64,000 nt of DNA from contig NC_087380.1 in the NCBI RefSeq assembly GCF_963675165.1, forward strand, positions 6,746,571-6,810,570. The letters are read 5' to 3'. The stretch is from Halichondria panicea (Eukaryota; Porifera; Demospongiae; Suberitida; Halichondriidae). Positions 31,045-60,247 of this stretch are shown piece after piece; position 1 is the stretch's first letter; the number at the start of each line of letters is the position of its first letter. Position numbers and translations under genes: made by a program. The notes below the pieces were generated by a model. The model did not search any database, had not been told where the DNA came from, and saw only the letters and a program-made list of their open reading frames with translations.

Positions 31045-31086
31045 ACTCTTACTTGCACTTGATTCATTCTTGAGCATCTGTAGCGG

Positions 31087-31087
<1 letters not shown>

Positions 31088-31162
<75 letters not shown>
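31088..31162. repeat. CA microsatellite (tail of an interspersed repeat)
   Basis: CA run flanked by the GCGCATGCGCACCAAGGCATA end of the interspersed repeat family, minus orientation. Confidence 0.92.
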
Positions 31163-32192: not shown

Positions 32193-32374
32193 TATAGTGG
32201 GTATATTTAAATGTTCGTGGTTTTCGCTGATCAAGCGGCTACCGCAAACGTTTATATTCTCGAATTTAATATCGCATGCATGCATGCTATTCCGCGAAAA
32301 TTGAATCCGTGAAAACCTCTAACTAACAGTCATTATACGCGAAAGTTTATACCCTCGAAATATACCCACTATAC
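32193..32374. mobile_element. MITE with GTATAGTGGGTATATTT ends
   Basis: Ends GTATAGTGGGTATATTT and AAATATACCCACTATAC are perfect inverted repeats. A related copy with TACCGTATAGCGG and ATATACCCACTA ends spans about 34015-34250. Confidence 0.78.
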
Positions 32375-32399
32375 GATTATAGTCCTCTAACTTGTGAGA

Positions 32400-34395: not shown

Positions 34396-34625
34396 TGGCT
34401 AGCCAGAGGAGGAATGCTAGGGTCAAAAGGTCATTAGTTAAAAGATTACGTGCATGGCCTCTTATGTAAAACTGAGTTCACCCCTGCATGGGCTTGATCC
34501 ATCACAACAGAAATCGGTTTGAGCTATATCGCGCCCCAGACAAACTTAAAGAAGAGATCCAAGATTTAATTGCAACCTTTGACGTTTTATTGCATTCTTC
34601 TACAAGATATGGAAAATTAGCCTTA
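34396..34625 (+). repeat. Direct repeat, copy 2 (5' of the 2A exon)
   Basis: Partner of 28195-28445. Encodes an open helical stretch (RFELYRAPDKLKEEIQDLIA..YGKLA) that could be a 5' exon of the following gene, but no good splice donor joins it in phase. Confidence 0.65.
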
Positions 34626-34836
34626 TGCGGATCGGGGTTCTCGGGGACAAATCCAAGGATTAGGTGTGGAGACTCTTACAGCATTTTTTCTTTTACCAAA
34701 ATTTTGTCGGTCTTTCACTGATTAGTCACTTAATTGTTACATAATAATGCTGATTTCCCATAAATGTCCGGTCCCTCCATGGTACGTATGTATGTAGCAT
34801 GCAATTAACTATTATTAATTCTATTAGATCTTCATA

Positions 34837-37800
34837 ATGGGTATTGGTGTGGAGTTGTGGAGAGCTCGTATTGGGTTGTTCAATGGTGGAAGAGGAGGGC
34901 GGCCACGTAAAGCTTCCCTGGCTCACCAGAAGCTACAGTGTGATGTTACTATCATAGTCACAAAGGTGTTGTGGACGCAGTATGCTGAAGACACTACCAG
35001 CCATCGTGATAAGTGTGTCGTTGAATCAGTACTAAATAATGCAACAGACAAAGCTCCTCCCAGTAACTGTCATGAAGATGTGGTTTCTGAAAAGAAAAAA
35101 GAATCAGTGACTTTCACGACTAACCATATTCGCAATCATTCCTCAAGTATTTGTATTGGCCTCACCCTGATCTTAATAGGAGCAATACTTGTCTTCGTCT
35201 CTCTTCTCCTGTTATTGGCCGGAGATGTAGAGCTAAACCCTGGACCTGGACTGGGTATGTACTTCCTTATGTTATGTATTTCACTATAGAATTATCATTG
35301 TAATGCAGCTACTGTTCTGACTATCTCTGACATACTTGAGGTGTATGATAAGGTGAGGAGTGCTAGTCCGAACTGGTTCAACCTGGGACTTGCGTTGAAG
35401 CTGAGCTATACCGACTTAACCAACTTTCGTGAGACCTACCGTGGTGAGAATGATGTGTGTTTGCGTGAGGCCCTAGCTCGTCGACTGCAGTCAGGTGATC
35501 CTCTAACTTGGGGAGGAATGTGTACTGCTCTCAGAAACTCTATGGTGGCAAGAAATGATGTAGCTGAAGCAATAGAGGGAAGTAAGTTGATGAAAAGTAG
35601 CCGATCTGCATACTATATATATTTGTATTGCATGTTTATACAGGTCTAAAGAGAGTCTCAGAAAGACTTGAGGTAACTGTATATAGTTAGCAGATTTTAT
35701 AATTATAGTCAAACAATCTGGCAATCAGTGTGCATTGTACATAACCATATGCTATAGTTTTAGTGGAATTGTATGTACTGCACACAATTTTAATCCCTAT
35801 ATACTCCACATACAGAGAGCTCAAAACAGCACTACAAAAACTGCCTCGGTGTCATCCATTGAGTCATTGGATGGTGATTATATATTTGGCCATAAGAAGG
35901 GTGCATGTATGCATGGTGGTATGTGATTTTGTATAGCTGGTTTCAACAATAATTACAGTGTATATAGTATGATTATTTAGTCTAGCATGTAAACACACAC
36001 TACTATGTATGCAGGTGCAATCAGTGAAGTAGTCTCTATATCTCGAAGTACGGCAGAGTTAGAAGTGGATTCGATGGAAATGCAAATAGTATTCAACAAA
36101 TTTGTGTCACAGCTGTGCCAGTCACTTGAAGTTCGAAGAATTGATAAAGACTCTTTGGTTGCTTGCTTGATGGGGTTTAACTCTCTAAAGAAGGTTTTTG
36201 GCAAAACAAATCAGTGTGTTTTCAGGAATCAAAGAAATAAACTTAGGAAATGTTCAACTTCTGCAGAAGTTTGGAAAATTATTGCTGACTATTTCTCCTT
36301 CTTTAACTATGAAATGGTTGATCACATTACAGACAGTTTCGGAACAGCCGAGGACAAAGAGAAGATGAAACTCTACAAAGCCAATTTTGTGGAGTATGTT
36401 AAACGACGAATACGTCCAGTGACTAGTTCAGATTCCAGAGAAGATACCGTCACTATGATTGTACAACTTGATTCTACGTATGACGATTGTGAACTGAATC
36501 GACTAAAGCTATTCGAACGGAATCTATGCTCCATCTTAAAAATCAGTAAAGGTTGTGTCGAGCTGTTGCCCTATTCCATAACAAGTGACATTTTTCCACT
36601 GTCAACTGATCGAGATGTGCATAATTATCAAGCTGAGGTACATGTATTTATTGTAAATTTATAGTACGGTCCTTTTTTCATTTATGTTTATATAGCTGCT
36701 GATGTTTTTCTATCTATACTTATGTCTCATTCTCCCTTTTATAGTGTCGATCGGATAAAGGTGATAACACATCCAGGTTCAGTTTAGGTGAGATAATTTA
36801 TACCTGCGTCATAGTATTGTTGATGGGATTTTAAGAGATATAATTACATATTATACGTAGTAAAATTACCATGATTTAAAAATGTGATAGTTTGTGTTAT
36901 GAGATTCTGCTATAATTATTAGTCCATCAGCATGATACAGCATGCATGTACGCAAAAGTATCTGTAGGGCCTGTATACATATATATATATACAGGCCCTA
37001 CAGCAGCTGTTACAGCACAACCAGCATCTATATGTAACGTACGTATAATTAATGTTGATGTTTTAACAATGTGTTCACAATCCACCTACCATTGTTGCAA
37101 CGAAATACTCATGTGCTCGTGTTTTATAAAATTATGCGCATTGGAATTCGCCCCAAAAAGGCGAATTCGTATACCTTAAGGTGACATAATAATTATTTTC
37201 ACAGGTAGATTTGTTTGCGCTTTCACTGTTTAGCTGGTAATAATATTAAATTCTGCTCAAGTTGTGAAATTAATAGCATATCTACGTACTCGAAAGTGGG
37301 ATTCATTGCATTTTCTAATTATCTGCGAGTACACATTTTTGCGATTTAACTCTCATTCGCAGAAATAGCTGAAATTAATACTGGCGAAAATATATCACCT
37401 TAACGCCCAAATACATCTTTCCAAGGCCTATTTTTATGCCTCGAGGTATGCAGTATAGTGTGTTTGTGTGTGTATCTGTGTAGACTGCTACAACATGCTC
37501 AAGAATCAATGAAGTGCAAATAAGAGTTTCTATAGTTATACCACATTTACGTCACGACTAATTATTGATCTCATTGGTCAACGACTGTAAGATATATAGA
37601 ATATTAGCATACAGCTCCAGGAATGCACAGTTTTTCAAGTTGTTTTTTAGTTTTTTGAGAGTCTCCGTGGGCTTCTGACTATATTTTCCTGGATTTTGAT
37701 TATGTATTTCACTATAGAATTATCATTGTAATGCAGATACTGTTCTGACTATCTCTGACATACTTGAGGTGTATGAGAAGGTGAGGAGTGTTAGTCCGAA

Positions 37801-40800
37801 CTGGTTCAACCTGGGACTTGCGTTGAAGCTGAGCTATACCGACTTAACCAACTTTCATGAGACCTACAGTGGTGACAATGATGTGTGTTTGCGTGAGGCC
37901 CTAGCTCGTCGACTGCAGTCAGGTGATCCTCTAACTTTGGGAGGAATGTGTACTGCTCTCAAAAACTCTATGGTGGCAAGAAATGATGTAGCTGAAGCAA
38001 TAGAGGGAAGTAAGTTGATGAAAAGTAGCCGATCTGCACACTATATATATTTGTATCGCATGTTTATACAGGTCTAGAGAGAGTCTCAGAAAGACTTGAG
38101 GTAACTGTATATAGTTAACAGATTTTATAATTATAGTCAAACAATCTGGCAATCAGTGTGCATTGTACATAACCATATGCTATAGTTTTAGTGGAATTGT
38201 ATGTACTGCACACAATTTTAATCCCTATATACTCCACATACAGAGAGCTCAAAACAGCACTACAAAAACTGCCTCGGTGTCATCCATTGAGTCATTGGAT
38301 GGTGATTATATATTTGGCCATAAGAAGGGTGCATGTATGCATGGTGGTATATGTGATTTTGTATAGCTGGTTTCAACAATAATTACAGTGTATATAGTAT
38401 GATTATTTAGTCTAGCATGTAAACACACACTACTATGTATGCAGGTGCAATCAGTGAAGTAGTCTCTATACCTCGAGAGTTAGAAGTGGATTCGATGGAA
38501 ATGGAAACACTATTCAACAAACTTGTGTCACAGCTGTGCCAGTCACTTGAAGTTCGAAGAATTGATAAAGACTCTTTGGTTGCTTGCTTGATGGGGTTTA
38601 ACTGTCTAAATAAGGTTTTTGGCAAAACAAATCAGTGTGTTTTCAGGAATCAAAGAAATAAACTTAGGAAATGTTCAACTTCTGCAGGTGTTTGGCAAAT
38701 TATTGCTGACTATTTCTCCTTCTTTGACTATGAAATGGTTGATCACATTACAGACAGTTTCGGAACAGCCGAGGACAAAGAGAAGATGAAACTCTACAAA
38801 GCCAATTTTGTGGAGTATGTTAAACGACGAGTACGAGTGACTAGTTCAGATTCCAGAGAAGATATCGTCACTATGATTGTACAACTTGATTCTACGTACG
38901 ACGATTGTGAACTGAATCGACTAAAGCTATTCGAATGGAATGTATCCTCCATCTTAAATTTGAACGATCATGTTTTAAAACTTAGTAAAATCAGTAAAGG
39001 TTGTGTCGAGCTGTTGCCCTCTTCCATAACAAGTGACATTTTTCCACTGTCAACTGATCGAGATGTGCATAATTATCAAGCTGAGGTACATGTATTTATT
39101 GTAAATTTATAGTACGGTCCTTTTTTCATTTATGTTTATATAGCTGCTAATGTTTTTCTATCTATACTTATGTCTCATTCTCCCTTTTATAGTGTCGATC
39201 GGATAAAGGTGATAACACATCCAGGTCCAGTTTAGGTGAGATAATTTATACCTGCGTCATGGTATTGTTGATGGGATATTAAGAGATATAATTACATATT
39301 ATACGTAGTAAAATTACCATGATTTAAAAATGTGATGGTTTGTGTTATGAGATTCTTCTATAATTATTAGTCCATCAGCACGATACAGCATGCATGTACG
39401 CACAAGAATCTGTAGGGCCTGTATACATATATATATTTATTGCTTTGTAATAAGTGCTGACATCAGCGTTTTACATTCAAATTGCACAGGAAGCGACTCA
39501 TCACCGACTGTGCAGATATTTTTCCATATCGCACACCCGGAAGTATTATTGCACACTTGTTATTGCACACTAGGAAGTGATTTTTATTTGGAATGAAACG
39601 TTTTCAGCAGTGAGAGAACAAGAAAAACATAGTTTACACACTTATAATCATGCATTGCAATGTTTATCAGTCTCTTTTCTTGTTTTCTGATGCTCTGTAT
39701 CACTTCTGTGCTCTTTTTGCAGTGAAGCTGAGGGTCAGGAGGTTGTCAGTATTCATATTTACTGCATCAAACAGGCATCAGTGTTGGGAGTGGGTGCTTT
39801 GAGCGGAGTATTGCACATGTAGAAGTGTACTGCATCACCATTATAAGCCTGTTCAGGCTTGTATAAAGTCGTTTTGGCTTCAAAAACGGTTGTCACACTT
39901 TTCTTCAGTTATAGCGGTGCATGTTTCCTCTTCTGATACACTGGAGCATGATAGAAAGCAAGCACATGCTGTTTATCCTTCAGAACTATCCATTTTCAAA
40001 ACGGGTTGCTGGTTGTCAACGTTTTTCTTGTCTTTTTTTCTTGTCTGTTCTCTACAAAATCTTTAAGTAGCCTTCTGCAAGCTCTCTTGGTGTTCTAGAG
40101 TCTTATTTCTTTGTCTTTCTAGCTGTTTTCTTTCTCTTAAATTCCTCTTCAACTGGGAGAACTAAATTTTGTTGCTACGCACTCTTCTGGTTGATAAAGC
40201 AACCGCATGTTGCGCATGCGCAGATTCAACCTGCATTTTGGCAATAAATGCATTATCCCATGGATACTGATGATTATCACTCGTCCGTGCCTAGTAACTG
40301 TCACTCGTGCCTTGCAGGCACTCGTGCAGTTACTGGCACAGACTCGTGATAATCTTCAGTATCCATAGGATAATATCATAATATATACAGGCCCTACAGC
40401 AACTGTTACAGCACAACCAGCATCTATATGTAATGTACGTATAATTAATGTTGATGTTTTAACAATGTGTTCACAATCCACCTACCATTGTTGCAACGAA
40501 ATACTCATGTGCTCGCGTTTTATAAAATTATGCGCATTGGAATTCGCCCAAAAAAGGCGAATTCGTATACCTTAAGGTGACATAATAATTATTTTCACAG
40601 GTAGATTTGTTTGCGCTTTCACTGTTTAGCTGGTAATAAAATTAAATTCTGCTCAAGTTGTGAAATTAATAGCATATCTACGTACTCGAAAGTGGGATTC
40701 ATTGCATTTTCTAATTATCTGCAAGTACACATTTTTGCGATTTAACTCTCATTCGCAGAAATAGCTGAAATTAATACTGGCGAAAATATATCACCTTAAC

Positions 40801-43800
40801 GCCCAAATACATCTTCCCAAGGCCTATTTTATGCCTCGAGGTATGCAGTATAGTGTGTTTGTGTGTGTATCTGTGTAGACTGCTACAACATGCTCAAGAA
40901 TCAATGAAGTGCAAATAAGAGTTTCTATAGTTATACCACACTTACGTCACGACTAATTATTGCTCATTGGTCAACGACTGTAGGATATGATTATAGAATA
41001 TTAGCATACAGCCCCTGGAATGCACAGTTTTTCAAGTTGTTTTTTAGTTTTTTGAGAGTCTCCGTGGGCTTCTGACTATATTTTCCTGGATTTTGATTCG
41101 TGGCATGGGCGTGGTTCTCGAGATGTGCCTAGTTCGCTTACTTGGAATGCTTGGAGTACGTAACAAATGAACAAAATGTTGCTGCTCTACTTATAGTATA
41201 GTTGGCTGTGCACAAGAACGCTAGCTATCGGGAGCATGCCGACGTAACCATTAATTTAATCGGTTTTAATAACGGTATTAGTCGATCATTACCCACTCCT
41301 CGAATTTGCATACAGCAAATGCACAAAATAATGTTCATCATGATAATCATAATGTGTGTATAGCTCGGCATCAGCACCTGTGGTTGCTTTTATTATTTGT
41401 GCACCCGCATATGCTCTGCTATCGCTGCCATATACCCTGCTGTGTGTGTGTGTAGACTGCTATATACAGCTGCTCAAGGATCAATGAAGTACAAGTAAGA
41501 GTTTCTATAGGCTTCTAGTCATGTATTCTTGGATTCTTATTTGTGGATTTGCAAAATAAAGCTTTGTTCTCGAGTTATGCTTAGTTTTGCTTACTTGGAA
41601 TGCCATTGCAGCCTTTTCAGAAGAGTCCGTAGCAAAACTTGTTTATCGAGTGTTGCTACTCTACTTAGTAGTTAGCTCTGCACTAGAACGCTAGCTATTG
41701 GTAGCTGCAAGAGTGAGAAGAGAGCTGCAAGGCTCTGCTGATGGCAGCCATTAATTTTAGACTTGAACTTTGGCATCGATCGTTTTTAACAATAATCATT
41801 CGATCATTACCCACTCTTTGACATACGGCATTATAATAATAATACTGCTCAGCGCTCTATAGTATACTGCTCTGCTCTGCCCCTGCCCGGTGTCCATAAG
41901 GCTTATATTATACTGCCCTGCCCTGCTTATACTATACTGCTTACACTGTACTGCCCCGCCCTGCCCTTATACTCCATTAACATAATAAATTCGCGAGCCC
42001 TGCTCGCTCTCGCTTCCCCCCTCCCCTGACACACACGCCCACAGGTACCTTAATTGCACGGTCTATGCTCAGTGGTTAATCCAGGAAAAATGAAAGGGGG
42101 ATGCCAAACTACGAGCGCGCAGCGCGAAATTTGTTGGGGTTCCGGTCACACGTTACTAGAGAGGGGAAGTCCCATAATAGACTTGTGTAGAGCTAGCTAG
42201 CTGCCACGAACAGTCAACTAGCTAGCTTAGGCTAACCTGAACACTCCTTTGGCAGTTGATGCATCCAAACTGTCTGTGTTTAGATTTTAATCGAGACCAC
42301 ACCTTTTACATTTTCCTCCATTCATTCACACTGTACACGTGTTCCAGGGTCCCTCACACTAGGAGAGGTGAGAGCTGTCATGTGGGGTGCTCGTTATGTA
42401 TGGAGGAAGCTGGGGATTACGTTGGGTCTACCACACGGCACAATACAGGTGATTGAAGGGGGCATGTAGTTTCCCAATACTCTCAGATTAATGATGTGCC
42501 CAGACTTTCAAAGTGGTGCATGGCATTTTTAATCAACACACGAACTTGCCTCTTTTTGTAGTAAAATGATTATAGGTCTAGTGGTGGTTGTTTTGTTTAG
42601 AAGTGCATGGTGTAGTACTTAACCACCAACCAGTGTGGGCAACCTCAAACTTGGCCACATGCAAAAACATCATACGTTAACATACGTTAATCAAGCTTCA
42701 CCCTACAGGTGATTGATAAGGACCACCGTACCATAACAGATTGCTTCACTGCAATGCTTAGAGAATGGCTGATGATCTCACCCAACCCCACCTGGTTTGA
42801 GCTGGTTGAAGCCCTGAGGTCACCAACCGTTCACCTTAATGTTTTAGCTGATGAGATTGAGGACAAGTACATCAAGAGTGATGTCTCCTCAGTGCAGGAA
42901 AAGGAGGATACAGCAAGTTAGTATAATTATGATAGCACAGAAAGGTCTTTCTGTTTAACTGCTGTGCAGTACGTGCTTAGTCTCTATAATTATACTCCAA
43001 TAACTATAATTTCATTGCATTTCCAGGGTCTTCTACGCTTCAAAGGGCACGCATGGAAGCTGCCTTGTGGGGTGCTCGTGCAAAATGGTTTGAATTGGGA
43101 CTTGCTTTGAATCTATCTAAGGAAACACTAGAGGTGATTTTTCGACAAACATGGTAAAATCTATATGCATTCAGTTTGGCACCGGAAGTTATTTGGTTAA
43201 TTTTATAGCTTCGTTTATATACTTTTATTATGCATGTGGTTGAAAAATATGCCAGGGATTTCTACAAAGAAACAATGAAATTTGGAATTTCAGTGAAGTA
43301 TGACAAAGTTATGACTCTATATAATGCTTCATTTGCATATATATGTGATAAATGTTAACTAAAGAATTACACCACAACTGTATGTATATGTACATGTCTG
43401 TGAAGAGGCAACATCAAGCATGCAGTTAATTAATATAGTATTGCAATATTAATAGTAGTGCACGAGTAACAAGCAATGGCAAGGATACTAATTGCACGAG
43501 GCGCAGCCGAGTGCTATTAATCTTGCCAGTGCTTGTTATGAGTGCTATTAATCCCTTATTGCACAAGTAGCCATACTATTGATTGTTAATTGTTTGTAAT
43601 GCAGTTTTAAGGACATCTTTAGCTGCAGATTCAGTAAAAAAAATTAGCCGCGGCCGTTATTCGAACGTGCGGTCATCAAGGCAGTAATTGCACGTTGTTA
43701 ATGACAACGTGCAATTACTGATACGCGATTAATCACTGTACGAATCAGTGAATAATAGGACAACATGCAATTATACTTTATATCATCTGTGTTTACTCTG

Positions 43801-46800
43801 CAGGCTATTCGTAAGAACCGTACTGTCTTGGCAGATCGTTTCACTGCAATGCTTGGAGAATGGTTCCAGTCCTCACCCAACCCCACCTGGTCTGAGCTGG
43901 TTAAAGCCCTGAGGTCACCAACCATTAACCGTCCTGACATTGCTGCTGAGATTGAGGACAAGCTAATCAAAATTAATGACTCATCAGAAAACAAGGACAC
44001 AGCAGGTGAGTGATGTAGCACTCTGACAAATACTGCCAATCTCCCGTGCAGCAAGCGCATATGTACTGTGTGTGCATGTTTAGATTTTAATTGATACCAC
44101 ACCTTTTCCATTTTTCCTCTATTCATACAGTGTTTCGAGGTTCCCTCGCACTAAGAGAGGTGAGAGCTGCCTTGTGGGATGATTGTACTGGATGGAGGAG
44201 TCTGGGGATTGAGTTAGAAATACCATACGAAACACTAATGGTGATTGAAAGGCACATATACAATACATTATACGTACATGTACATATAATGTACATCATG
44301 ATAGGTTAAAGGTACGTGTACTGTAAATCAACAACAATTTACTCTGAAAATTCTATGATTTTGCAGTTATTTTGATGCCATGGCATGTCCCCCAAAAGAA
44401 ATTATACCCCTATACCTACCTGGTACTCAACGGTGGCAATTTTCTGTCTGTCTGTTTGTCATGGATCATGATAATTTACGGCTCACGATCTTGAGTGTGC
44501 ATGCTTCAAATGAGCACTTGCAGCTGTGATATTCGCTCACACTCGCTTTAACGTTCTTCGTTATTTATAAACATGTTAGCGTATGTTAAACTAAAGCAAT
44601 GTTCACTCTATACAGGCTATTAAGAAGATCCACCGTACCTCAAAAGATCGCTTCACTGCAATGCTTAGAGAATGGCTGATGATCTCACCCAACCCCATCT
44701 GGTCTGAGCTGGTTGAAGCCCTGAGATCACCAACCATTATGCGTATTGACATTGCTGATAAGATTGAGAAGAAGTACATCAAGAGTGATGTCTCCCCAGT
44801 ACAGGAAAAGGAGGATACAGCAAGTTAGTATGTTAGCGCACATTAAGCTCCTAACAAGACTGAAAGGCCTTCCTGTTTAAAACCTGATTGCATGCATGCA
44901 TGTGCTCATGGCGTATAGGCAGGAATTCCAGGAAGGGGGGCTTAGTTAGAGTTAGAGGCCGCCAGAACCCCCTGCGGCGCACGTGCCAACATTTTAGGGG
45001 TTAACTGGAGCCACACCTCCTAATCAATTGCTCATGTCCAGGAAGTCAGCTCTTATCCTGCTCTAGCACCAACCAAATTGTGGTGGTATTATTCACACTG
45101 CAGTACACATGTGCAAGATCTCTTACTTTAGCCACACCCTTCAATAAGTTTATTTGTGTACAACTATTGTTAGAGCTAGCTAAATTAAAGAAGCTTAGTT
45201 TTTACCGTAGTGCTGCACTATAGTTGCTATATATAGCTAGCTCTTGGGCATATTGATGGTGCCAATAATCTTATTGTATTGCTATATAGCCCAGGCTCAA
45301 AAGGTGCACAGAGAAGGTGGGGCTCCTGTTGGTACTTTTGCAGAGGAAGGGGGGGGGGCTCCAGCCCCCAAAGCCCTACCCCTCCCTACGCCCCTGTGCA
45401 GTGGCTGCATGTGCTTTGTATTTGCTCACCATACCTCACGAAAATAAGCCCATCTTGAATAAACGTCCATCCCCTCTTTGCTTTGAAGTTCTGGGGATTG
45501 ACTCAATAATACGCCCATCCAGAATGAAGAGTAGTTTGAAATGAAAATACTTAATTAATAAAGAATTGTCATAGAGCCAAGTGTAAAGCCTATAGATTTA
45601 AGGCCGCACGGGTGGCGTATATTGTGAAAAGTCATTGTTATCGATTAAACGCCCAGTATAATAAGCCTAAATTCTTGCAGAAAAGGGTGGGTGTATTTTC
45701 GGAGGGTACGGTAACTGTAATTTCATTTCATTTCCAGGGTCTTCCATGCTTCAAGGGGCACGCATGGAAGCTGCCTTGTGGCATGCTCGTGCTAAGTGGT
45801 TTGAGTTGGGGCTTGCTTTGGATCTATCTGAGGAAACACTAAAGGTGATTTAACATTGTACTCTACCTTTAAATTAGTTAAGGTGCCACAAAAAACTTTG
45901 GCGCACAAATAGAACGGAGAATAATACATGAGCCTCAGCTGGCCCTTCATTTAGTGACGGCCACGTTGAAAGTGCAAGATAAATAACTTTGATCGCTTCA
46001 TTTGGCGCCCAATTATAATTCAGAAAAAAGAAAGCACCACGGGTGCTGATGCCTCGATGGATATATCAAAGCTACATAACATAAAGCTACTAGCTATTAG
46101 CAATAGCATTATATATCAATACAGGTGAACATCTAATCGCAGAGAAACTCAAGGAGTGGGTAATGATCGACCATGATTGTTGTTAAAAACAATCAATGCC
46201 GAAAGGCTGCACTGGCATTCCAAGTAAGCAAAACTGGCATAACTTGAGAACCAAGCATTATTTTGCAAATCCACGAATTAAAATCCAAGAAAACACGACT
46301 AGAGTCTATAGAAACTCTTACTTGCACTTCATTGATCCTTGAGCAGCTCGAGCAGTCTACACACACACACACAAACACACTACTGTATACCTCGCTTGCG
46401 CATGCGCACCGAGGCATAATTAGACTGTTCAAGTTGGCGCTAAGACTAGAGTGGTGCCTTTTTGATTAGTAACTAAACAATTAGACCACACAATTTATTG
46501 TACTAGTCGTGTCTACAATGTCTCATTATACATGCGCGTACATCATCTGTGTTTACTCTGCAGGCTATTCATAAGAACCACACTGTCTTGGCAGATCGTT
46601 TCACTGCAATGCTTGGAGAATGGTTCCAGTCCTCACCCAACCCCACCTGGTCTGAGCTGGTTAAAGCCCTGAGGTCACCAACCATTAACCGTCCTGACAT
46701 TGCTGCTGAGATTGAGGACAAGCTTATCAAAAGTGATGACTCATCATTACAAGAAAACAAGGACACAGCAGGTGAGTGATGTTGGCACTCTGAAAAATAT

Positions 46801-49800: not shown

Positions 49801-52800
49801 TTTTTCCATATCGCACACCCGGAAGTATATTATTGCACACTTGTTATTGCACACTAGGAAGTGATTCTTATTTGGAATAAAACGTTTTCAGCAGTGAGAG
49901 AACAAGGAAAACATAGTTTACACACTTATATAATCATGCATTGCAATGTTTATCAGTCTCTTTTCCTGTTTTCTGATGCTCTGTATCACTTCTGTGCTCT
50001 TTTTGCAGTGAAGCTGAGGGTCAGGAGGTTGTCAGTGTTCATATGTAATGCATCAAACAGGCATCAGTGTTGGGAGTGGGTGCTTTGAGCTGAGTATTGC
50101 ACATGTAGAATGTACTACACCACCATATAAGCCTGTTCAGGCTTGTATAAAGTCGTTTTGCATGGCTCTAAAAATGGTTGTCACACTTTTCTTCAGTTAT
50201 AGCGGTGCATGTTTCCTCTTCTGATACACTGGAGCATGATAGAAAGTAAGCACACGCTGTTTATCCTTCAGAACTATCCATTTTCAAAACGGGTTGCTGC
50301 ATGGTTGTCAACGTTTTTCTTGTCTTTTTTTCTTGTCTGTTCTCTACAAAATCTTTAAGTAGCCTTCTGCAAGCTCTCTTGGTGTTCTAGAGTCTTATTT
50401 CTTTGTCTTTCTAGCTGTTTTCTTTCTCTACTCGTCTTCAACTGGTCAATTTTGTTGCTACGCATTCTTCTGGTTGATAAAGCAACCGCATGTTGCGCAT
50501 GCGCAGATTCCACCTGCATTTTGGTTGCCAAGCAATAAATGCATTATCCCATGGATACTGATGATTATCACTCGTCCGTGCCTAGTAGCTGTCACTCGTG
50601 CCTTGCAGGCACTCGTGCAGTTACTGGCACAGACTCGTGATAATCTTCAGTGTCCATAGGATAATATCATAAGATCTATACAGTGTAGTTTTATGTCGTA
50701 TAGCTTTGGTGCCTCCACCGAGGCATCAGCACCTGCAGAGCACTCAAGTGCTAACCCTTGGCTGTTGACATGAATATAAATAGATACCAGAGGAGTACAG
50801 AAAACAACCTACAAATCTACTTTTGATCACTTTAGCTGCAAATATGTAGATCTACTTCGAATAAAGGGCGCTTGTAAATCGAAGCTTTAACATCGAAATC
50901 TAAAACTAACGAGTGTTGCAAGCGTGCGCTTGCTAATGGCTCTCGCCATGTTTTTGCTTTCGATCGAAAGTATTAGAGTGTTATAGAAGAGGTAAATAAT
51001 TTACAATATGTTTTGATTGTTTCACAAGAAAGGGGTGTCCACAGTTAATTATATTAATAGTGCATACTGATCGTCTTAAATGGCCTGTAGCCAAACAGTG
51101 GGAGCAACAGCAGTCTAAGAGTTTAATCACAGAATTCAATCCAGAAAGTAGTATCTATAACAAGGAGTCTAAAAAGAGTTATCAGAAAAGGTTGGTTTGT
51201 GGCTTACCAGGACCTCAACAAAGAAGAGAATTGATTCTTCCAGGATCTGGGGTTCAAAATAGATTCTCTTACCGTGGTATTGAGCGCGCATGCGCATTAC
51301 ATCCAGGAATAAGGGGTGTGTCTGCAAGTTCAATAATGGCTACTAAAATTAGCTAGCTTCTTCATGCAGCAGCTCTTTCTGACTCTTGTAGCCAACAAAA
51401 AGCTAGCGCTTTAGTGCAAGGCTAACTTATAAGTTGAATAGAAAGTTTGTGCAAACAGATGATGCTATGAAAGATTCTGAAGAGACTGCAACAGCCTTCA
51501 ATGTGAGTCAAACTAGAGAAAGAAGCTTTAGTTTGCTAATCCACGAATCAAAATCCAAGAGAACGTGGCTAGAAGCCTATAGAAGCTGTTAGTTTTCGTC
51601 GCATTGCAACCGTTGAGCAGTTACATGCATGCAGTTGGAACACACACACACACACACACACACACAGTCAGCTTTACCGTATCCCTCATGCGGCTACGCC
51701 TCGAGGCATAATAACTTGTTATGTGTAGGCTATCCATGCTGTAAATGCAGTGCTATCGCATCCAGGTGAGTACATGCACTCATGCACAAATCGCAAACAA
51801 ACAGACGAACAAACCAATCGACCGCTCACTCGCCTCGGGTAATAATGCTCCGCTTGCATTGCATCTAATTTACAGCAGTCTAGCTCTGTTGGGAAACTGC
51901 ATGCAGTCTCCTTTTTGAGTGACCTAAAATATAATAATGTAGCACCTCAAAACAATAAATTATCATCTGGTTGTTTTGATTTCAGTGTTGCCAAGGTTTT
52001 TGAATTGAAATTCCATATACATGATTCCCTTACGAAAACACACAATGTATCATGAAAATCAACGACATGCAGAATGACGTCTTAATAAATTGGTGGTCTA
52101 TTCACTGTACATGCAGGCTATTCAGGAGGCAAACCTTACAAATATGCCGGGAGATTGCTTCACTGAACTGCTTGCAGAATGGCTCAAGTCCTCACCCAAC
52201 CCAACCTGGTCTCAGCTGGTTGAAGCCCTGAGGTCACCAATCATTGACTATCCTGGCATTGCTGATGAGATTGAGGACAAGTACATCAAGAGTGATGACT
52301 CCTCAGTGCAGGAAAGCAAGGACACAGCAAGCTCAGGTTGGTTAGTTATATTCACAATCAAGTGCCATAAAATGTACATCATATATATACATGCTTGTGA
52401 ATTACATATAGAGAGGGTCAGTATGATAACAGCGTTCCATGGTTACTGTCATGTTACGTGCGTTAAGTGACCGTTTACTTTAATAACTAGAGCACTGAAG
52501 TGCTAACCCTCGGCTCTTTACCTGCATGAATACAATCACTAAATAGTAGTATATGTAGTATGTATGAAGCATGGAAGCTGGGTAATTAGCAAGTAACATT
52601 TCGCAATGAAATTCTGTCCCTTCCTGGTAACAGGATCACTTCAGCTGTAAATACGTACCTCGAAAAAAGGACGCATGTAGCTAGCTAGAGGCCAACGTGC
52701 AAGTGCTTCTTACAGAGCCTCCAAGTAGAGACTTTTCTTTTCAGTATTAATCAGCTCATTTTTCCGTATTTAATGATAATTTTCAGTAAAAAACATGGAA

Positions 52801-55800
52801 ATGAGGCTTTGTAATTGCCCCGCCCCTTCAATAAAGGGGTGTGGCAAGCGAGACTTGGCTTTACAAGATAAATTTATACCTGTCTTTCAGTATCAGACTC
52901 ACTACCAATATAGGGCATAGAGCTACTACAGCTGTAGGGATGCTACTAGATCATTCACTGTCAACTATAAGTTAACTTATTCTGTAAGCTGACAAAAGGT
53001 CACTTCTAGTCTTCTAGATCTACATGTATATCCGTATTTTTGCAGTTAATTCCGTATAACCGTATTAGAAGACAGAAATCCGTATAAATCCGGAAAAAAC
53101 CGTCTACTTGGAGGCTCTGTTCTTAGCTTTTGCTCGCTTTTATTTAATTAACAACGAAGCTTTAACATCAAAATCTGCCACTTTTAAAACTAATAACTTG
53201 CTGTGTGAGACTATCCATACTGCGCTGTGACATCCAGGTGAGTAGACTCAAAATACACAAACAAACAAACCAACGGACTACTATATCCGCTGGCGGCGGC
53301 ACGGCCTCGGGTAAAAATAACAGCCTCCAATAAACATTTTCATGACCCCATGGCATTTTAAAAAGGGTGCATGGAAAAGCTGGACACGGACGCCGGACAT
53401 GGACATGGACACGGACATAAATTTTTTTTACACGTAGACTACTTTTGTGCGCATTGCGCGTTCAAGCCACATGGTGATAATAATTATAGTATAGACAAGA
53501 CATAATTTATAGTTATAATTATCTTCTTGAATCCGGGCTCAAATGAGTAAATAGTCCCATAGTCATAGTTTCTGACTCTGACAACAACATTGGTGAAGTG
53601 AAAAAACGATCAGTATCAAGGACACCCTGCCCACCCTCTCTCTACAACTCTCCCTTTGGTAGCTCTGAGCATGAATTGTCTGCTCCATCTGCTTCACCAC
53701 AACGGAATGTGTACTCTGTTGGAATAAGTGCTCTGTATGCCACTTTTGGTCACAATTCAGTTGGAGTTTATTCTCCAATTTCTGTTAACAGTGTGCCGGC
53801 AAGGTCCTCTTTCTGGGCCACCCCCACTATACCATCCATCTCGATCTCCTCAGCACTCAGTGGGTCAACCATTTCGGATTCTTTTTTCGAACTCTATAGG
53901 ATCTCCAGGTGTCAAGGCTGCCGTGGAAAAATTGATCACACTCTTGATGATCTTGTTATTCAGCACAAAGAACATGTTCTCTTTCAGAACCCTCATACTG
54001 GGCGATGGGAGATGTCACATGACGAAACACCTACTACCATGCTAAATTTTTTTGCGTTACTTTGAAGCACCCATATTTCTCCCCAGCTGAATTAATAATG
54101 GACAAAGAATTACTTCAGCCTTGTCATTTGGATTTGCTTTGTACTGAGTTTGGTCTGATTGTAGCTTCGAGTTTGTATGTCGTTTGTGTAACTGTTTTTG
54201 TACTGAACTTGAGTTTTTTGTGTGTAACTATTTTTATACTGACATAAGTTTTCTGTACTTTGCAGTGTTATTGTTGGCATTGGTCTCATCAATGAAATAA
54301 TAATAATTACAATTATTGTTGGCATTGGGCGTCAATGAAATAATAATAATTATGTAGATCGTTTTTGGACTATAGATCTCTGCGACCATGTCCGTGTCCG
54401 TGTCCGTGTCCGTGTCCGTGTCTGTGTCCGTGTCCTGCTTTTCCATGCACCCTTTTAAAAAAGCTCTTACAGTGCATCCAGCTTAGAGAGTAGATTACCA
54501 CAAATGTGTGAGTGCTGTACTTAAATGTTGATATCTTTTGATTGGAATCTTTAATGGTGCTGATACCATTGTGTAGGTGAATGAATAACATATCCCAAAA
54601 AATGTCCATGAAAACATGAGGTCCATGGTGGTGGGTTTGGGGGGATTAATAAGAACAACAGCAAATTGCTATAGTGAGTAATCGGTTAGAGTAATAAAAC
54701 ACTAACCTTAAACAGCTAAGGTCTCAGACTTCATAAGATAATTGTTCAATGGTTTAGGTATCCTGGCTATCCTTCATGGGTCTTATATATGTTCACAGTG
54801 TATATAATTCATGATTTACTGGTTTTCAGGTATACTTTTGGTTAGAGTAATAACTTTTGAAAAATTAATAGCTTAGCTTTCAAATTTCTGTAATAAGTTT
54901 ACAGATAGCTAAATGGGCTACATTTTGATACCAAGAACATCCTATATGCTTATTCCATTGCTGAGATAACTACAAATTTCTACTGTTTTGATGACATCAG
55001 CAGCTGCTAACCAGAATCCTGACGTCACTGGTCAGGATAGCAACCAGAAGTGTTGAAAGAGCCATTTCACGTCAGTAGTTTTAGTGCAGGTATAGTTCTA
55101 TAAGATCGGCCCCTTGGGAAGGACACGAGTGGCAAGGATTAAAGTCCAAACTATTAATGGCTGCGAGCTATTAAAAAGCTTTGCAGCTCTTTTCTTACTG
55201 TTAAAGCATTAATATACCCCACTTGGGTCATAGCAACTAGGTGGGGTTTAACTACCATAAACCCCAGCCCTGGAGCACATTCCTTGAGGGTGCACTGATT
55301 TTATACTAAGATCTACACAGCCAAAAAGAAGCTAGACACTTGTTGACAAGGGCAGGACAGATGGGTTGGGGCTCGCTAAACACCAGGAAGGCTGGAAGAT
55401 GGGTGGGGCTCACTGCTTGGACATTGACTATATATAGTTAGTGCGTCGAGCTAGAAGCTTAGCACTGGTTTCAAGCTATACCACAAGCTTTTTGTTCGTT
55501 TTTAATAGTTTTTGAGACTGTTAGCTAGTTGTATCCAAGGTGAGGTAGCTTAGGTAGTAAGTACTTTACATTCAAGTGGGTATAATTATAACACTTATTG
55601 TCCACTACATTCGAATTTATGGCAAACGTAAACCATCCTTGGCCTCGGGGCTTCGTCCTTGTCCTCGGAGGTTTACTGTTATAAATCTGATGTAGTGGAC
55701 AATAAGTATTGAGGGGGGGGCGAGGGGGTAATTCCCCCTACCCCCTTGGACCTGGCATTAAGCATTAATTTTGTATACTGATATTATTATGGCTTATGAG

Positions 55801-58800
55801 CTGAAATTGCACCATGCAGAGTCGATCTAAGACCCTCAAATATCCAAATTTGTCCGTGGGAGCATACCCCAGGGCCCTTTCGGTGCATGCATACGCTGCA
55901 GGGGGCTTCGCCTACATTTTTCATTTTCCCCCTGACGCAAAATCATGGATGTGGCTCTGCATCCACTAAATTTGTTTAACATTGGACATCAACATACCTT
56001 ATATCAGCGGGAAATTTTCGTGAGGTGGAAAATTTAGCGTTTTTCAATGGCAGAGCAGTTGGCGCGAAGATCAGTGAAAACCCACTCACAGATAGTGAGT
56101 GTGGTTTCCTGGCATTGAAACGCGAATATTACAACCCCATAGAAGGCAAAAATGTGCACACACGCCACTATAATGGTATCTGGCAGCTGCCAATAATGCT
56201 AATCAGTACATCAATTGCAGTTTTTTACTTATCTTGAAGTACTTGTCACCTTACTAACTTTTTCCTTTACTTTCAGCCTCTGTTGAAGAGCAGTTGAAGT
56301 ACTTACACAAGCTGAACGAGTTGCTGACAGATACAGAGAACACCATCAACATCCGCTATCTCAAACTGTACCTAATCGGCCTTTCAGGGCTCGGCAAAAC
56401 CACCTTCCGAAAACGTCTGCTGGGTCACCTACTTAACCTAGCATCAATCCCACCACAAGACAGAAAACGCTGCAGCACTCTTCTTGCCGAGTGTAATCAA
56501 GTCCTGGCTGTGTCAAGTGACTCCAAATTGTTTCTCAAAGCCTCCACAGATATTGACAACGAAGCACAACTGATTTTCGCTTACATGATTGGCCTTCAGC
56601 AAGTTGTAAAAGCCGCCATTTCCAAAGTAGTTGAATCTGCTGATCCAACGAATGATCCCATTGTTGATGCAATTGATGCTTCTATTGATGATTCTAAGCC
56701 AAAAGAAGATTATGATACTCATCCCACAGTTGAAGTTGATCCGAGCAAAAAACAAGGAAACAAAGAAGCCAAATCAAAGGCTCCAGAAACCAATGTCGAC
56801 ACAAACGAAGATTCTAAAGCTCAGCCAAGCACAAAGCAAGTTCCCCAGGAAGGAAGTAAGCCAGCCAAACCAAAGGCTCCAGAAACCAAGGTTGACAAGA
56901 TCATTGAAAACCTTCGAAATATTGTCAAGCGCGGCAATTACATGGAACAGTTGGTAGGCACAGTTTTACTCAACATCATTGACATAGGTGGGCAACCCGG
57001 CTTTATGGAGATGCTTCCATTTTTGAGCAAAGGCCCAGGGATGTTTCTCGCCTTCTTCCCTCTCGATAAAGATCTCGATGAGCTTTATGAGGTTTCCTAC
57101 GAACATGACCAAGACAAAATCACCCCCTTCCAAGCAAAGTATACAATTCGAGAAACCCTCTCCCAAATTCTTTCAGCCATCAGCCATCACGTCACCGTTG
57201 ATTCGGATCTTGATTCCAAGATTGCCGAGAAAGTTGAACATTTCGCAGATCTTCAGGCTGTCGTGAGTCTAGTGGGCACTTACCAAGACGTGTTGGAAAT
57301 TCAAGCCAAGTCAGAAGTCGTTCAGGAAAAGCTCAAGGGGGATTACCCCGGTCTTGACGCAAACACCCTGGAAGCCGCAATACAGCTGATTCTGGAGGTG
57401 CAGCAAGAAGTCGAATCTGAGCAGAAGGTGGAGGAGATCTTTTTCGAATTTGAGGCAGAGGTTGGCAAGCAGGATTCCTTTTCGAACAACCTGGTAGAAC
57501 ATGTCGAGCAAAAAGCAAAAGCGAAGGCCACCACTGATAAACAGCAGAAACCAACGACACCACAAGAGGATACCGAATTGCAAAGCAAAGTGGAAGTTCT
57601 CGAGAAAACTCTACCTCCTGAAATCAAAAACAAATTGAAACAGAACACACCCAAAGCTGTTCAACTTTTGCTCCAGATGAAGCAATGTAACGAAACCCTC
57701 TCCAAGTTAGCAAGTGCTGTTGATAAGTTGAGCACAGATTCTACCATTCAAGCTGAAACTAAAAAACGTTTGCAAGCAAAACTCCAAGAGAAGCACAAAG
57801 TCTTATCCACCATTACCTCAAATTTTGGTGAAGTCATCAGCCACCCAGATGACAGTCATTTCTTCTCCGTGGACAACTTCCGTGGCGAAGAAGCTGACAT
57901 TGATCCGATTCGTAAACACCTTCAAACAGTGTTTGACTCACGTTTTGATGATGCTGAAATCCAGATTCGCCCTGCACAGCTCCTGTATGGGATCATTCTA
58001 CGAAAAGAATTTGAAATTGCGACGATGGAAGAGTGCATTCAGATTGGCAAACAATTGGAGATGGATGAAGATGAGGTGAAGTTCACCATTTGGTATTTGC
58101 ACCAGTGTGTGGGGGCCCTTCTCTACTATCCTGACATAAAGGACAAGGAGTCTTACTTCAAAAACCATGTCATCTGCAGCCCCAATGTTGTCTTCAACAG
58201 CATCAGTCTCCTGATTGTCGAATCTCTTCTATCTCTACACTCAGGTGATAAGAGGTCTCGTTTCACCGCTGCCGAGATCAAGAAGTGGCAAGAATTCGGG
58301 CAATTCTCGATTCCTGTGATTAAACTCTGCTGTTCCAAGACGAATAAAGCAAAAGTGAAGGAAGGTGAATTGATCCCGGTCGACAAGCTTGTGAAGTTGC
58401 TTGAGCATGTCAGTCTCCTTGCACCCATAGTTGGTAAAGGTCCCCAGCCAGTTTACTTCATGCCAGCTATCCTCGAGTGTGCCTCAAAGGAAGAGCTTTC
58501 AAATGCTCCAGCCATCGACTCCAACACACCCTCTCCAATCAAGATCACCTTCGAGTCTGGCTATATGCCCATTGGTGTCTTCTGTGCCATGATCAGCAAG
58601 TTGGTTTCCGAGGGACAAAACAAGATTTTGGGGCTGAAATGGAATCTGCGAGAATCTCGTGTCATGAGAAATCTGGTCTCTTTCGAAGTCGATAGTGCCA
58701 AACATGACATCACGCTGGTAGCCCACGTCAACTGCTACGAGATTCGACTTACAAGACGTGAAGATTGCAACATGCATGATCTCTGCTCCTATGTGCTGAC

Positions 58801-60247
58801 TACCGTCCTGTATATGATGAGCGGAATTAGCAAGAAGATCGAGCCGATTATTGCATTCGATTGTCAGTGCCCAAAGCATCAAAAAGCTGAGGAGGTTTGT
58901 CTGTGCAAGCTGAAAAATTTCTTTCGATGCGAGCACGGCCGTGTTGACAGTCTACCACCCCATCAGGAGTGCTGGTTTGCAAAGGTACGTAATCAGTTTT
59001 AACTTATATTATGTATATATGTACTGTATGCTATATAGTTTAACGCTATAGTCCAGCGAAGGTATGTGGTATAGGAGTATTCAATTATTTGTCATACCCA
59101 TTTACTGTATTTTACAGTACATGTACATACATTTTTTTTTCCTTCTAGGAAGTTAAGCTGGATGAGAAAGCTGTTCTTGAAGCCCTGCGATTTGCTGACC
59201 CTGATGACCTCTCCTTCAAGTGGACCAGGAAAGGCAGGAAGGTAGCGAGTGGATCAGATAACGAGCTCACTGTGAACAAAGTGACGAGGGATCATTGCGA
59301 TGGGTTCTACACTTGTGAAGTATCCAAGAACAAGCAGCTCTGCTTCAAAGTGCACCACTGCTTGAGATGTATCAGTAAGTATTGACAATGCTGTGTAAAG
59401 CATGATTCTTGTGATGTATGTTATTTGCAAATTGTGTGTTTATTACCTTGGCCTCAATTGCCAACGGCAACAAGACACGTACACAGCTATAGTTACATTG
59501 GTTTTGACACCGGTTGTATAAATTATGCTCTTCAATTCTTGCTGTTGCATGTATTTTGCTAATCAGTAATCTATCAGTTTCCCCCTTTGTTATTCCCTAT
59601 ACATGCATGTACATGTTCTTTGCTGCTTCATTACCAAACCATGTTCCCGCTTTGTCCAGGTGAGGCCACAGCTACAGGTGATGACATAACTCTCAAGACT
59701 GTCAAAGATGCTACTTGGGATGCTCGTGCAAAGTGGGACCACCTGGCCATTAACTTAGATGTGGACGAGGGAACTATTAAAGTGAGTATTGTTCAAATTG
59801 ACTTAGCACAATGTTATTCGTTTGCAGATGAAAGTGTAGCTATAATTTAATACACTGTATATATACAATGGGGAGGCTTCATGCATACTCTGTATCTAGG
59901 GTAGATGGCAGGAGTAAAGTGTATCGGATACAGTATTATTGCAGTGAAAACATTTCTTCAGTGCATGCATGTATACTCCCATACACTTTACTCCTGCCAC
60001 CTACCTACTAACCCGTAACCCTAACTCTATTGTAACTAACTGCATTTTCTCATTCTTGTATGTGCAGAGCATAGAAAGGTCCCACAATGGTCGTGTGGAC
60101 GAGTGTTTTGTTGCAATGTTGGAGGCCTGGTTCAAGAAGGGATCTCCGAGCTGGTCGGTCATGGTGGAAGCTTTGAGAGCCCCCAGTGTGGATAGACGGG
60201 GCCTAGCCAACAATATTGAGAAGAAATTTATGAACAACAGTGAATAA
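34837..60247 (+). CDS. Giant 2A / multi-death-domain / Roc-like GTPase / Ig protein, 2461 aa (25 exons)
   Basis: Exons: 34837-35254, 35309-35581, 35644-35672, 35816-35918, 36015-36637, 36745-36787, 37737-38009, 38072-38100, 38244-38346, 38445-39085, 39193-39235, 42348-42448, 42709-42916, 43027-43133, 43804-44005, 44131-44240, 44616-44823, 45738-45844, 46564-46771, 46915-47015, 52117-52336, 56277-58984, 59149-59374, 59660-59781 and 60068-60247. Every junction is GT..AG and in phase, and the sum is a whole number of codons. Order: hydrophobic segment plus 2A motif; two modules of death domain plus helical domain; five split death domains; GTPase; Ig-like; C-terminal death domain. Death domains recruit partners by homotypic binding; the GTPase may switch assembly (inference). 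The gene is built from 1-1 phase modules. It could be transcribed as several genes or isoforms; the part from 52117 to the stop is best supported. The start is uncertain, since an acceptor sits 9 bp upstream. Confidence 0.72.
35146..35250 (+). other. Hydrophobic segment plus 2A-like ribosome-skipping motif
   Basis: Residues 104-128 of the predicted protein form a strongly hydrophobic helix (ICIGLTLILIGAILVFVSLLLLL) running straight into AGDVELNPGPG. D-V/I-E-x-N-P-G-P is the consensus of 2A peptides, which make ribosomes skip the Gly-Pro bond; here that bond is at codons 35242-35247. 2A-like motifs after Leu-rich stretches are known from non-LTR retrotransposons and from sea urchin NLR-type genes, where the N-terminal segment doubles as a signal sequence. 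The exon is spliced in frame to a death domain (donor CTGG|GTATGT at 35255). Confidence 0.88.
35309..36787 (+). other. Module C1: death domain plus helical domain (exons 2-6)
   Basis: Exon 35309-35581 encodes a complete death domain (ISDILEVYDKVRSASPNWFN..LGLALKLSYTDL..GGMCTALRNSMVARNDVAEAI). Two short Ser/Thr-rich linker exons follow, then 36015-36637, an alpha-helical domain (KFVSQLCQSLEVRRIDKDSL..WKIIADYFSFFNYEMVDHIT..YKANFVEYVKRRI) followed by a VTMIVQLDSTYDDCEL segment. I know this helical type only from uncharacterised invertebrate proteins. The module enters and leaves in phase 1. Confidence 0.75.
36962..37003. repeat. 16-bp perfect palindrome around an AT tract
   Basis: CTGTAGGGCCTGTATA (36962-36977) is inverted at 36988-37003, with CATATATATA between. 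In the second duplication copy the AT centre is the insertion site of the 944-bp element. Confidence 0.93.
37737..39235 (+). other. Module C2: death domain plus helical domain (exons 7-11)
   Basis: Near-identical copy of module C1 with all splice sites and frames intact. Differences are scattered amino-acid changes (for example TYRGEN to TYSGDN), loss of the three residues STA, and nine extra residues in the late helical segment (around NLNDHVLKL) compared with C1. Intact frames suggest it is coding. Confidence 0.75.
39437..40380 (+). mobile_element. 944-bp interspersed element inserted in duplication copy 2
   Basis: Starts TTATTGCTTTGTAATAAGTG and ends GGATAATATCATA. A second copy lies at 49719-50671. 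The empty site is seen at 36978-36987 in duplication copy 1. The last 123 bp (40252-40374) form a long imperfect hairpin (ATTATCC..ATGGATACTGA / TCAGTATCCAT..GGATAAT). No TIRs, poly-A tail or transposase frame, so the class is unresolved. Confidence 0.9.
41405..41830 (+). repeat. Interspersed repeat copy (ATCAATGAAGTACAAG family)
   Basis: Same sequence order as 29850-30275, with a very short GT run. Confidence 0.8.
43682..43720. repeat. Perfect 17-bp hairpin, 5-base loop
   Basis: CAGTAATTGCACGTTGT, TAATG, then the exact inverse. In the intron before exon B4. Confidence 0.95.
46040..46420 (-). repeat. Interspersed repeat copy, minus orientation
   Basis: Inverse of the 29850-30275 family, ending GCGCATGCGCACCGAGGCATA at about 46420. 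Confidence 0.8.
49719..50671 (+). mobile_element. Second copy of the 944-bp element
   Basis: Near-identical to 39437-40380 from TTATTGCTTTTTAATAAGTG to GGATAATATCATA, including the terminal hairpin. Flanks differ, which confirms the element borders. Confidence 0.9.
50930..51720. repeat. Partial copy of the large foldback family
   Basis: Contains TCTCGCCATGTTTTTGCTTTCG, TGATTCTTCCAGGATCTGGG, GCGCGCATGCGCATTACATC and the GCGGCTACGCCTCGAGGCAT end seen at 21897-21915. Confidence 0.8.
52117..52336 (+). other. DD7 second-half exon (B7)
   Basis: AIQEANLTN..CFTELLAEWLKSSPNPTWSQLVEALRSPII..GIADEIEDKYIK. Ends TCAG|GTTGGT in phase 1, which joins the GTPase exon (56277) as A-S-V-E-E-Q. Confidence 0.82.
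52714..53121. mobile_element. Foldback MITE (AGAGCCTCCAAGTAGA ends)
   Basis: CAGAGCCTCCAAGTAGAGAC at the left is inverted as GTCTACTTGGAGGCTCTG at the right, nested in an AGTGCTAACCC-family repeat (52490-53310). Confidence 0.75.
53357..54460. mobile_element. TIR element with GGACAC/GTGTCC hexamer arrays and a broken internal ORF
   Basis: Ends 53357-53380 and 54437-54460 are inverted repeats (TTTAAAAAGGGTGCATGGAA.. / ..TTCCATGCACCCTTTTAAAA). Just inside each end is an array of a GGACAC-type hexamer (53382-53418; 54386-54435). Size about 1.1 kb. It sits in the intron between exons B7 and the GTPase exon. The internal ORF is described separately. Confidence 0.87.
53571..54200 (+). pseudogene. 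Frame-broken ORF inside the TIR element
   Basis: The open frame to 54065 encodes a Ser/Pro-rich stretch, then a Cys-containing block (CQGCRGKIDHTLDDLVIQHK) like the zinc-binding C-terminal region found in many repeat-encoded invertebrate proteins. The expected continuation (KHPYFSPAELIM) lies in another frame from 54065, so one frame change separates the halves. No DDE catalytic core is visible. Likely the 3' part of a decayed transposon gene. Confidence 0.55.
55560..56276. other. Intron 3' part before the GTPase exon
   Basis: Contains an inverted pair around 55583-55715 (AACACTTATTGTCCACTACAT / ATGTAGTGGACAATAAGTAT) and a TTTTCGTGAGGTGGAAAATTTAGCG repeat piece. The exon acceptor is CTTTCAG at 56270-56276. 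Confidence 0.6.
56277..58984 (+). other. Roc-like GTPase and COR-like exon, 902 codons
   Basis: One long exon. P-loop GLSGLGKTT at 56378-56404, a G3 motif DIGGQPGF at 56981-57004 and a G4-like GTYQD (about 57275-57290; Roc domains use THxD) define a Ras-like GTPase of the Roc type. About 190 residues separate P-loop and G3, including a Lys/Pro/Glu-rich linker with a repeated KAPETxVD unit. After a coiled coil (about 57360-57840) comes FFSVDNFRGEEADIDPIRKHL and a winged-helix-like segment (YLHQCVGALLYYPDI..VICSPNVVFNSI) resembling the COR region of Roco proteins. The tail is Cys-rich (CQCPKHQKAEEVCLCKL). Confidence 0.78.
59149..59374 (+). other. Ig-like domain exon
   Basis: 75 codons plus one base. 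LSFKWTRKGRKVASGSDNEL and the D-x-x-D-G-F-Y-T-C-E-V pattern mark strands C to F of an Ig fold. The usual first cysteine in strand B is absent (VLEALRFADP). The exon enters in phase 0 and leaves in phase 1. Confidence 0.75.
59660..60247 (+). other. C-terminal split death domain (DD8) and stop
   Basis: Exons 59660-59781 (ITLKTVKDATWDARAKWDHL..INLDVDEGTIK) and 60068-60247 (SIERSHNGRVDECFVAMLEA..PSWSVMVEALRAPSVDRRGL..NNIEKKF) use the same A/B split as DD3-DD7, ending FMNNSE-stop. Confidence 0.85.

Follow-up and report, generated by a model that had tools for sequence, protein, structure and literature searches.

A candidate modular Roco scaffold with a 2A-like leader and death domains in the sponge Halichondria panicea

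To our knowledge, few cases are on record in which cells employ 2A recoding. Roulston et al. reported that the hydrophobic 2A sequences at the N-termini of sea-urchin NLR proteins both recode and target, and that sea-urchin 2A sequences also occur in non-LTR elements (PMC4981915, excerpt). In Amphimedon, Kaur et al. described units of Death and TRADD-N domains with variable C-termini and proposed that they act in immune or apoptotic complexes (PMC8195603, excerpt). According to a review, Roc-COR acts as a dimeric nucleotide switch, and the Roco group that has a death domain (DD) is DAPK1 (PMC6337361, excerpt). Here we describe LOC135334611, a gene of Halichondria panicea. It lies in a window of 64,000 nucleotides (contig C4, 6746571–6810570) of a 131-Mb genome of 39 contigs; C-numbers denote contigs. 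We put the probability that LOC135334611 is a single gene encoding a modular Roco scaffold equipped with a co-translational 2A switch at roughly 55%. No published account of 2A-like sequences with sponge death domains, or of Roc-COR in Amphimedon, was found in the open-access literature, and the accessible part of a 2026 paper on sponge NLRs, H. panicea included, has no occurrence of 'roco', 'gtpase' or '2a-like' (PMC12909245).

Like the sea-urchin NLRs, putative immune proteins in which a hydrophobic stretch joined to D(V/I)ExNPGP lies close to the N-terminus, LOC135334611 carries this combination; unlike them, as the excerpt presents them, it has no NACHT or LRR profile, its 2A is perhaps internal, and DDs and Roc-COR follow. 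With the Amphimedon expansions it shares the order of an N-terminal Death-like domain, a second module and a variable C-terminus, but the excerpt of PMC8195603 mentions no 2A, and the module of LOC135334611 is at most a putative TRADD-N. The Roco proteins (LRRK1/2, bacterial and archaeal Roco, the DAPK1 group) resemble it by the fold of the Roc-COR tandem and, in DAPK1, by a DD after Roc-COR (PMC6337361, excerpt). LOC135334611 differs from them in its two large Roc inserts, an Ig domain between COR and DD, a DD array, the 2A, and the lack of a kinase or LRR profile in its isoform X5 (P0122).

The gene model and its domains

The initial annotation had drawn a gene of 25 exons from ATG 34837 to TAA 60247 (window coordinates; all exons are on the plus strand). 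A search for AG/GT borders within five bases of exon ends picked by eye, with a single open frame required, gave two 25-exon solutions of 2450 and 2452 codons including the stop. The exons can thus be joined in one frame, and the previous total of 2462 codons has to be corrected. The frame is open throughout, as had been claimed, but phase matching alone is weak evidence because every border is of phase 0 or 1 and the DD halves are mutual duplicates.

LOC135334611 is a real and unusual gene, and as publicly predicted it is longer than this model. The isoforms examined, both gene predictions, are X5 (2374 aa) and X3 (P0123, 2509 aa). X5 maps without mismatch onto 28 exons at 23930–60247, which moves the start from ATG 34837 to 23930 and places eight exons ahead of the 2A exon. 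Exons 4 and 9 of the 25-exon model end at 35873 and 38301 in the public models. X5 joins 35254 to 37737 and omits the first of two DD/module copies (copy 1, 35309–36787); X3 holds both copies, and its mapping reached 43082 only. The junctions 39235/42348, 47015/52117 and 52336/56277 are used in X5 by exact mapping, and 36787/37737 is used in X3 within the part followed. All 33 exons combined amount to 2717 codons with a single stop.

The 2A exon (34828–35254), located by the model, motif search and X5 mapping, encodes a hydrophobic 20-mer (35161–35220, mean hydropathy 3.03) and then DVELNPGP (35224–35247), which fits D(V/I)ExNPGP exactly; the predicted NPG|P break precedes codon 35245. Three in-frame codons stand ahead of ATG 34837, which becomes an optional Met. 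The 2A is internal in the public model, since exons from 23930 precede it and the frame is open before this ATG.

Eight DDs can be recognised by similarity in 34837–60247, as the initial annotation had it. One opens each DD/module copy: copy 1 consists of a DD (35309–35581), linker exons, a module of about 207 residues (36015–36637) and a short exon (36745–36787), and copy 2 (37737–39235; in X3 and X5) of a DD (37737–38009), linkers, a 213-residue module (38445–39085) and a short exon (39193–39235). Five split DDs follow, DDs 1–4 and the first half of DD 5 in nine exons (42348–47015) and the second half of DD 5 at 52117–52336. The last, also split, ends the gene with the stop (59660–59781, 60068–60247). 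The model and the X5 mapping agree on the array and on the C-terminal DD. Upstream of the 2A exon, the X5 mapping adds a further split DD of the array (28826–28926, 29193–29400), which resembles the 42348 and 42709 exons, and a first DD half (29577–29683); no convincing second half was found in 29700–34830 (best E 0.038, short). The five N-terminal exons, outside the earlier model and mapped exactly, encode a C2-like domain (23930–24041, 24226–24290, 27156–27250, 27350–27443 and 27615–27678); the Pfam C2 matches of the paralogs P0005 (E 0.0014) and P0025 (E 0.0011) are both below the cut-off.

The domain profiles bear out the previous assignments in part. Pfam Death is above its cut-off in X5 (E 1.4e-41, seven stretches, a DD set that partly differs from that of the 34837–60247 model), and single DD exons alone fall below it. 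Roc (13.1 bits, cut-off 27) and Ig are below cut-off. The Ig-like exon, at 59149–59374 as annotated before, matches Ig_3 at E 1.1e-5 (26.3 bits, cut-off 30). The GTPase exon, likewise at its previous position (56277–58984, a single exon of 2.7 kb), was assigned from motifs and fold. Its AlphaFold2 model (mean pLDDT 62, pTM 0.60, 280 of 901 residues below 50) aligns over residues 1–880 with the RocCOR parts of LRRK2 and CtRoco, and ranks 1–26 of the comparison are all Roco, which identifies a Roc-COR tandem at the level of the predicted fold. A sequence-profile search of solved structures returned no Roco match for this exon; such matches came from the fold comparison alone. G1, G3 and G4 motifs are present in 47, 48 and 48 of 48 rows, the assignment of stretches to motifs being our judgement, and Roc carries one low-confidence and one helical insert. 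The Pfam scan of X5 found no kinase, LRR or NACHT profile. We therefore set aside an NLR reading, for want of NACHT and LRR, and membership of the DAPK1 group, for want of a kinase, although a DD follows Roc-COR with Ig between.

The module exons have no Pfam match, and a profile search of solved structures gave two weak unrelated rows only. In its position the module resembles the published Death/TRADD-N unit. It also contains a Gly-Cys pair; TRADD-N is characterised by an RRM-like fold with a Gly-Ser/Cys turn. TRADD-N was rejected as a firm name: neither profile nor structure matches it, and the fold model (pLDDT 45.4, four rows) is too poor to search.

2A leaders, modules and Roc-COR genes across the genome

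Exact codon patterns for DVExNPGP occur 91 times in the genome and those for DIExNPGP 25 times; backward patterns gave 0. The 116 motifs fall in 42 clusters separated by gaps of more than 100 kb. The most 2A-rich contig is C14, with 41 motifs (38 DVE, 3 DIE) in both orientations at 0.50–1.63 Mb and P0124 among the downstream genes. We read 30 of the 91 DVE loci, 1.5 kb after the 2A in each. A hydrophobic stretch lay within 34 residues upstream of the motif in 27 of them; in the remaining three, just 12 in-frame residues precede the motif. Of 1358 control windows, 208 passed the same criterion. A DD-like exon followed the 2A in 23 of the 30, the window locus included, and was not found within the 1.5 kb read in the other seven.

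The exon-10 module has 96 matches in the genome. Among the best 23 of these, two being the window's own, a same-strand 2A lies within 6 kb upstream of 18 and within 12 kb upstream of 21; no opposite-strand 2A was found near them. Seen from the 91 2As, a module lies within 5 kb downstream in 17 and in no case upstream or on the other strand. For COR, 2A positions were compared for the first 98 of 153 matches (DIE motifs for 11 chosen rows only). Within 25 kb upstream, a same-strand 2A was found for eight of these 98 and an opposite-strand 2A for none; 0.64 would be expected under uniform placement, which ignores clustering. Five of the eight form one tandem set on C2, where each COR exon stands 4.9–7.2 kb after a same-strand 2A, and this weakens the test. 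The sequences of predicted proteins give stronger evidence. At four loci (P0122/P0123, P0124, P0126 and P0127), 2A and RocCOR-Ig appear in the same predicted chain, and these loci were the only NPGP carriers among the first 127 proteins examined. P0124 adds a dynamin-like GTPase, and P0126 and P0127 add ankyrins. A homolog search with the N-terminus of P0126 retrieved a single protein, P0128, ordered 2A-DD-DD, a weak ZU5 match and DD.

The claim that the architecture matches no protein family is not supported for the Roc-COR part, which with its 153 COR matches and its Ig forms a core common to many genes of this sponge. We examined 19 H. panicea models (X5 and X3 being two models of one gene). 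Roc-COR queries had recovered 18 of them, so the presence of Roc-COR in these is uninformative. Ig follows Roc-COR in 17 of the 18, P0025 ending within Roc-COR, and a detectable DD follows Ig in 15 of the 17. Their N-termini differ and include C2-like parts, DDs with kinase, SH3, ankyrin, RhoGEF/PH/SH2, dynamin-like and 2A-DD.

LOC135334177 (P0126, 2124 aa), on another contig, has the order 2A-DD-module-ankyrin-RocCOR-Ig-DD-DD and thus, like the two LOC135334611 models, unites 2A, DDs, Roc-COR, Ig and a DD in one predicted gene, as had been claimed for the 25-exon model. It shares the MGIGVELWRA leader with LOC135334611, but where the latter has its array of five DDs it has ankyrin repeats; it ends in two DDs, and its 2A is N-terminal, without a C2-like part. 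The paralog LOC135335600 (P0005; C2-DD-DD-RocCOR-Ig-DD) shares the C2-like start, split DDs, RocCOR (82%), Ig (87%) and C-terminal DD, but lacks 2A and module and has two DDs ahead of Roc.

Locus history and alternative explanations

The 2A block has a history of duplication. The unit at 35272–36991 is repeated at 37700–39439 (97.7% identity over 1708 aligned bases), and the DD pair at 28813–29804 recurs at 42336–43270 (92.4%), so that two copies of the pair flank the block. The block itself, 34828–43133, has near-identical half-DD exons on both sides and is entered and left in phase 0. If 29683 is joined to 43804, an intact in-frame DD results, and with no second DD half found in 29700–34830 the block can be read as a phase-0 cassette. 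A relative on C11 has the same 2A-DD-module unit. Non-coding sequence after its last exon is 95.4–97.3% identical to the window in three stretches, and no RocCOR exon match was found in the 9 kb read. Downstream of the C11 unit, on the minus strand of L071 (3–1511), are retroelement-like frames, one with knuckle-like cysteines (a label given by eye). Two introns of LOC135334611 share an interspersed repeat of about 960 bp (39427–40390 and 49709–50683; 927 of 953 aligned bases identical). The intron 52337–56276 holds a candidate DNA transposon (53353–54464) with terminal inverted repeats (53353–53417 and 54395–54464) and an open frame of 172 codons (53547–54062) without a Pfam match.

Selection was assessed by the ratio of non-synonymous (Ka) to synonymous (Ks) change; comparisons with C5 and L054 were saturated. 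Ka/Ks of the RocCOR exon against three C4 paralogs is 0.36–0.40. Against the C3 copy it is 0.61 for the leader, 0.40 for the DD and 0.48 for the module. Between the tandem copies, the module exon has Ka 0.035 and Ks 0.019 and the DD exon seven non-synonymous and no synonymous differences; a test for positive selection with approximate site counts gave p 0.038, which is suggestive only. As far as sequence comparison goes, the pattern is consistent with rapid change or a loosening of constraint in the duplicated part and with a constrained core.

Several findings weigh against a single gene. The public models are predictions and may chain neighbouring genes: P0121, on C4, strings a kinase and two RocCOR-Ig units into a single protein, through either the fusion of tandem genes or a prediction that chains them, and X3 at 43082 joins two repeated exons without a border accepted by our script. 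The close C4 paralogs (L069, L070; P0005) are DD-RocCOR genes without the 2A block; in the 10 kb read at each of the tandem paralogs L069 and L070, two split DDs and RocCOR are present and no 2A or module match was found. Same-strand 2As also lie within 25 kb downstream of 5 of the 98 COR places, as tandem arrays would give, and the 2A–COR position counts, being weak, do not alone establish one gene. Together with the C11 unit, its matching 3' flank without RocCOR and the DD pairs on either side of the block, these points favour two overlapping genes, a 2A-DD-module gene having been duplicated into a C2-DD-RocCOR-Ig-DD gene, with separate real messages that are joined by the predictor or by occasional read-through. 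We consider this unlikely, as P0126 has 2A-DD-module ahead of RocCOR-Ig-DD-DD on another contig, C2 has its five COR exons downstream of same-strand 2As, and the phases of the block match the host gene at both ends. A second proposal, which we find doubtful, sets the main start at ATG 34837, with a promoter just before 34.8 kb and an N-terminal 2A as in P0126. The leader is 73% identical to the N-terminus of P0126, start peptide included. Homology with the C3 copy begins at 34819, at a splice-acceptor-like TTAG just 5' of the ATG, as would be expected of an exon that once opened the coding sequence behind an intron in the 5' leader; in C3 the TTAG-to-ATG spacing is smaller by four bases, a difference that would shift the frame with respect to an upstream coding exon. 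Both predicted isoforms nevertheless start at 23930.

The block could also be a decaying passenger whose useful product is lost. Module Ka/Ks against C11 is 0.74 for copy 2 and 1.06 for copy 1, and differences between the tandem copies are denser in exons (about 26 of 884 bases) than in introns and flanks (13 of 954, three stretches; p 0.023, counts derived from rounded identities); by sequence, both observations also fit relaxed constraint, as does the excess of Ka over Ks between the module copies. Compared with the C11 relative, both module copies show in-frame losses. Copy 1 has lost more, including ten residues present in copy 2 and C11, and X5 omits copy 1 altogether. Decay is nonetheless quite unlikely given the C3 ratios for leader, DD and module, the open frames, the splice borders and the exact 2A motif. 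It is highly improbable that the 2A is a retrotransposon fragment. Sea-urchin non-LTR elements carry 2A as well as NLRs do (PMC4981915, excerpt), and seven of the 30 loci, which were not searched for reverse transcriptase, showed no DD-like exon; against this stand the 23 loci with one and the leader and DD common to annotated multi-domain genes.

Elsewhere in the window, an open frame at 10115–11113 has matches to RING-like and TRAF-type zinc fingers (zf-TRAF E 1e-11) and, by eye, a hydrophobic C-terminus. Frames at 11263–11871 and 12670–13485 appear related by eye, each with a hydrophobic N-terminus followed by a coiled-coil-like part; the second holds a 24-base tandem repeat at 13249–13330.

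Proposed mechanism and significance

If LOC135334611 is one gene, its C-terminal core of Roc-COR, Ig and DD would be the GTP-controlled dimerising part, and the DD array and module would recruit partners by like-with-like contacts and feed into a complex for innate immunity or cell death. A chain break at NPG|P, should the 2A be active, would free the upstream piece, either the leader alone or, from the long message, C2-DD-half-DD-leader, and a free DD-module-DD5-RocCOR-Ig-DD scaffold would follow. Without the break, the scaffold would remain joined to a putative membrane anchor. Skipping of 34828–43133, which the near-identical flanking half-DD exons and the phase 0 at both ends make possible, would give a C2-DD-RocCOR form without 2A. 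We infer such a GTP-switched DD scaffold, its membrane link set by 2A, from the work on sea-urchin 2A, Amphimedon Death/TRADD-N and Roco proteins; a role in death or immune signalling would be consistent with known DD and Roco biology.

More tentatively still, the hydrophobic-2A leader may be a genome-wide co-translational sorting switch for sponge death-domain proteins, and the internal 2A may make the C2-DD-Roco gene a splice-switchable two-protein unit. If so, each message with one of the more than 100 2A sites would yield a free and a membrane-anchored scaffold, across many families (RocCOR, ZU5-type, dynamin-like, DD-module).

Most surprising among these findings is the genome-wide pairing of 2A with DDs. 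With 116 motifs in 42 clusters and a DD-like exon after the 2A at 23 of 30 loci, the recoding of putative immune scaffolds by 2A may date back further, or have arisen more often, than has been assumed. With its changeable N-termini, the Roc-COR-Ig core adds to the Roco proteins a large branch linked with death domains, and this branch is useful for asking how Roc-COR switches became wired to cell-death signalling.
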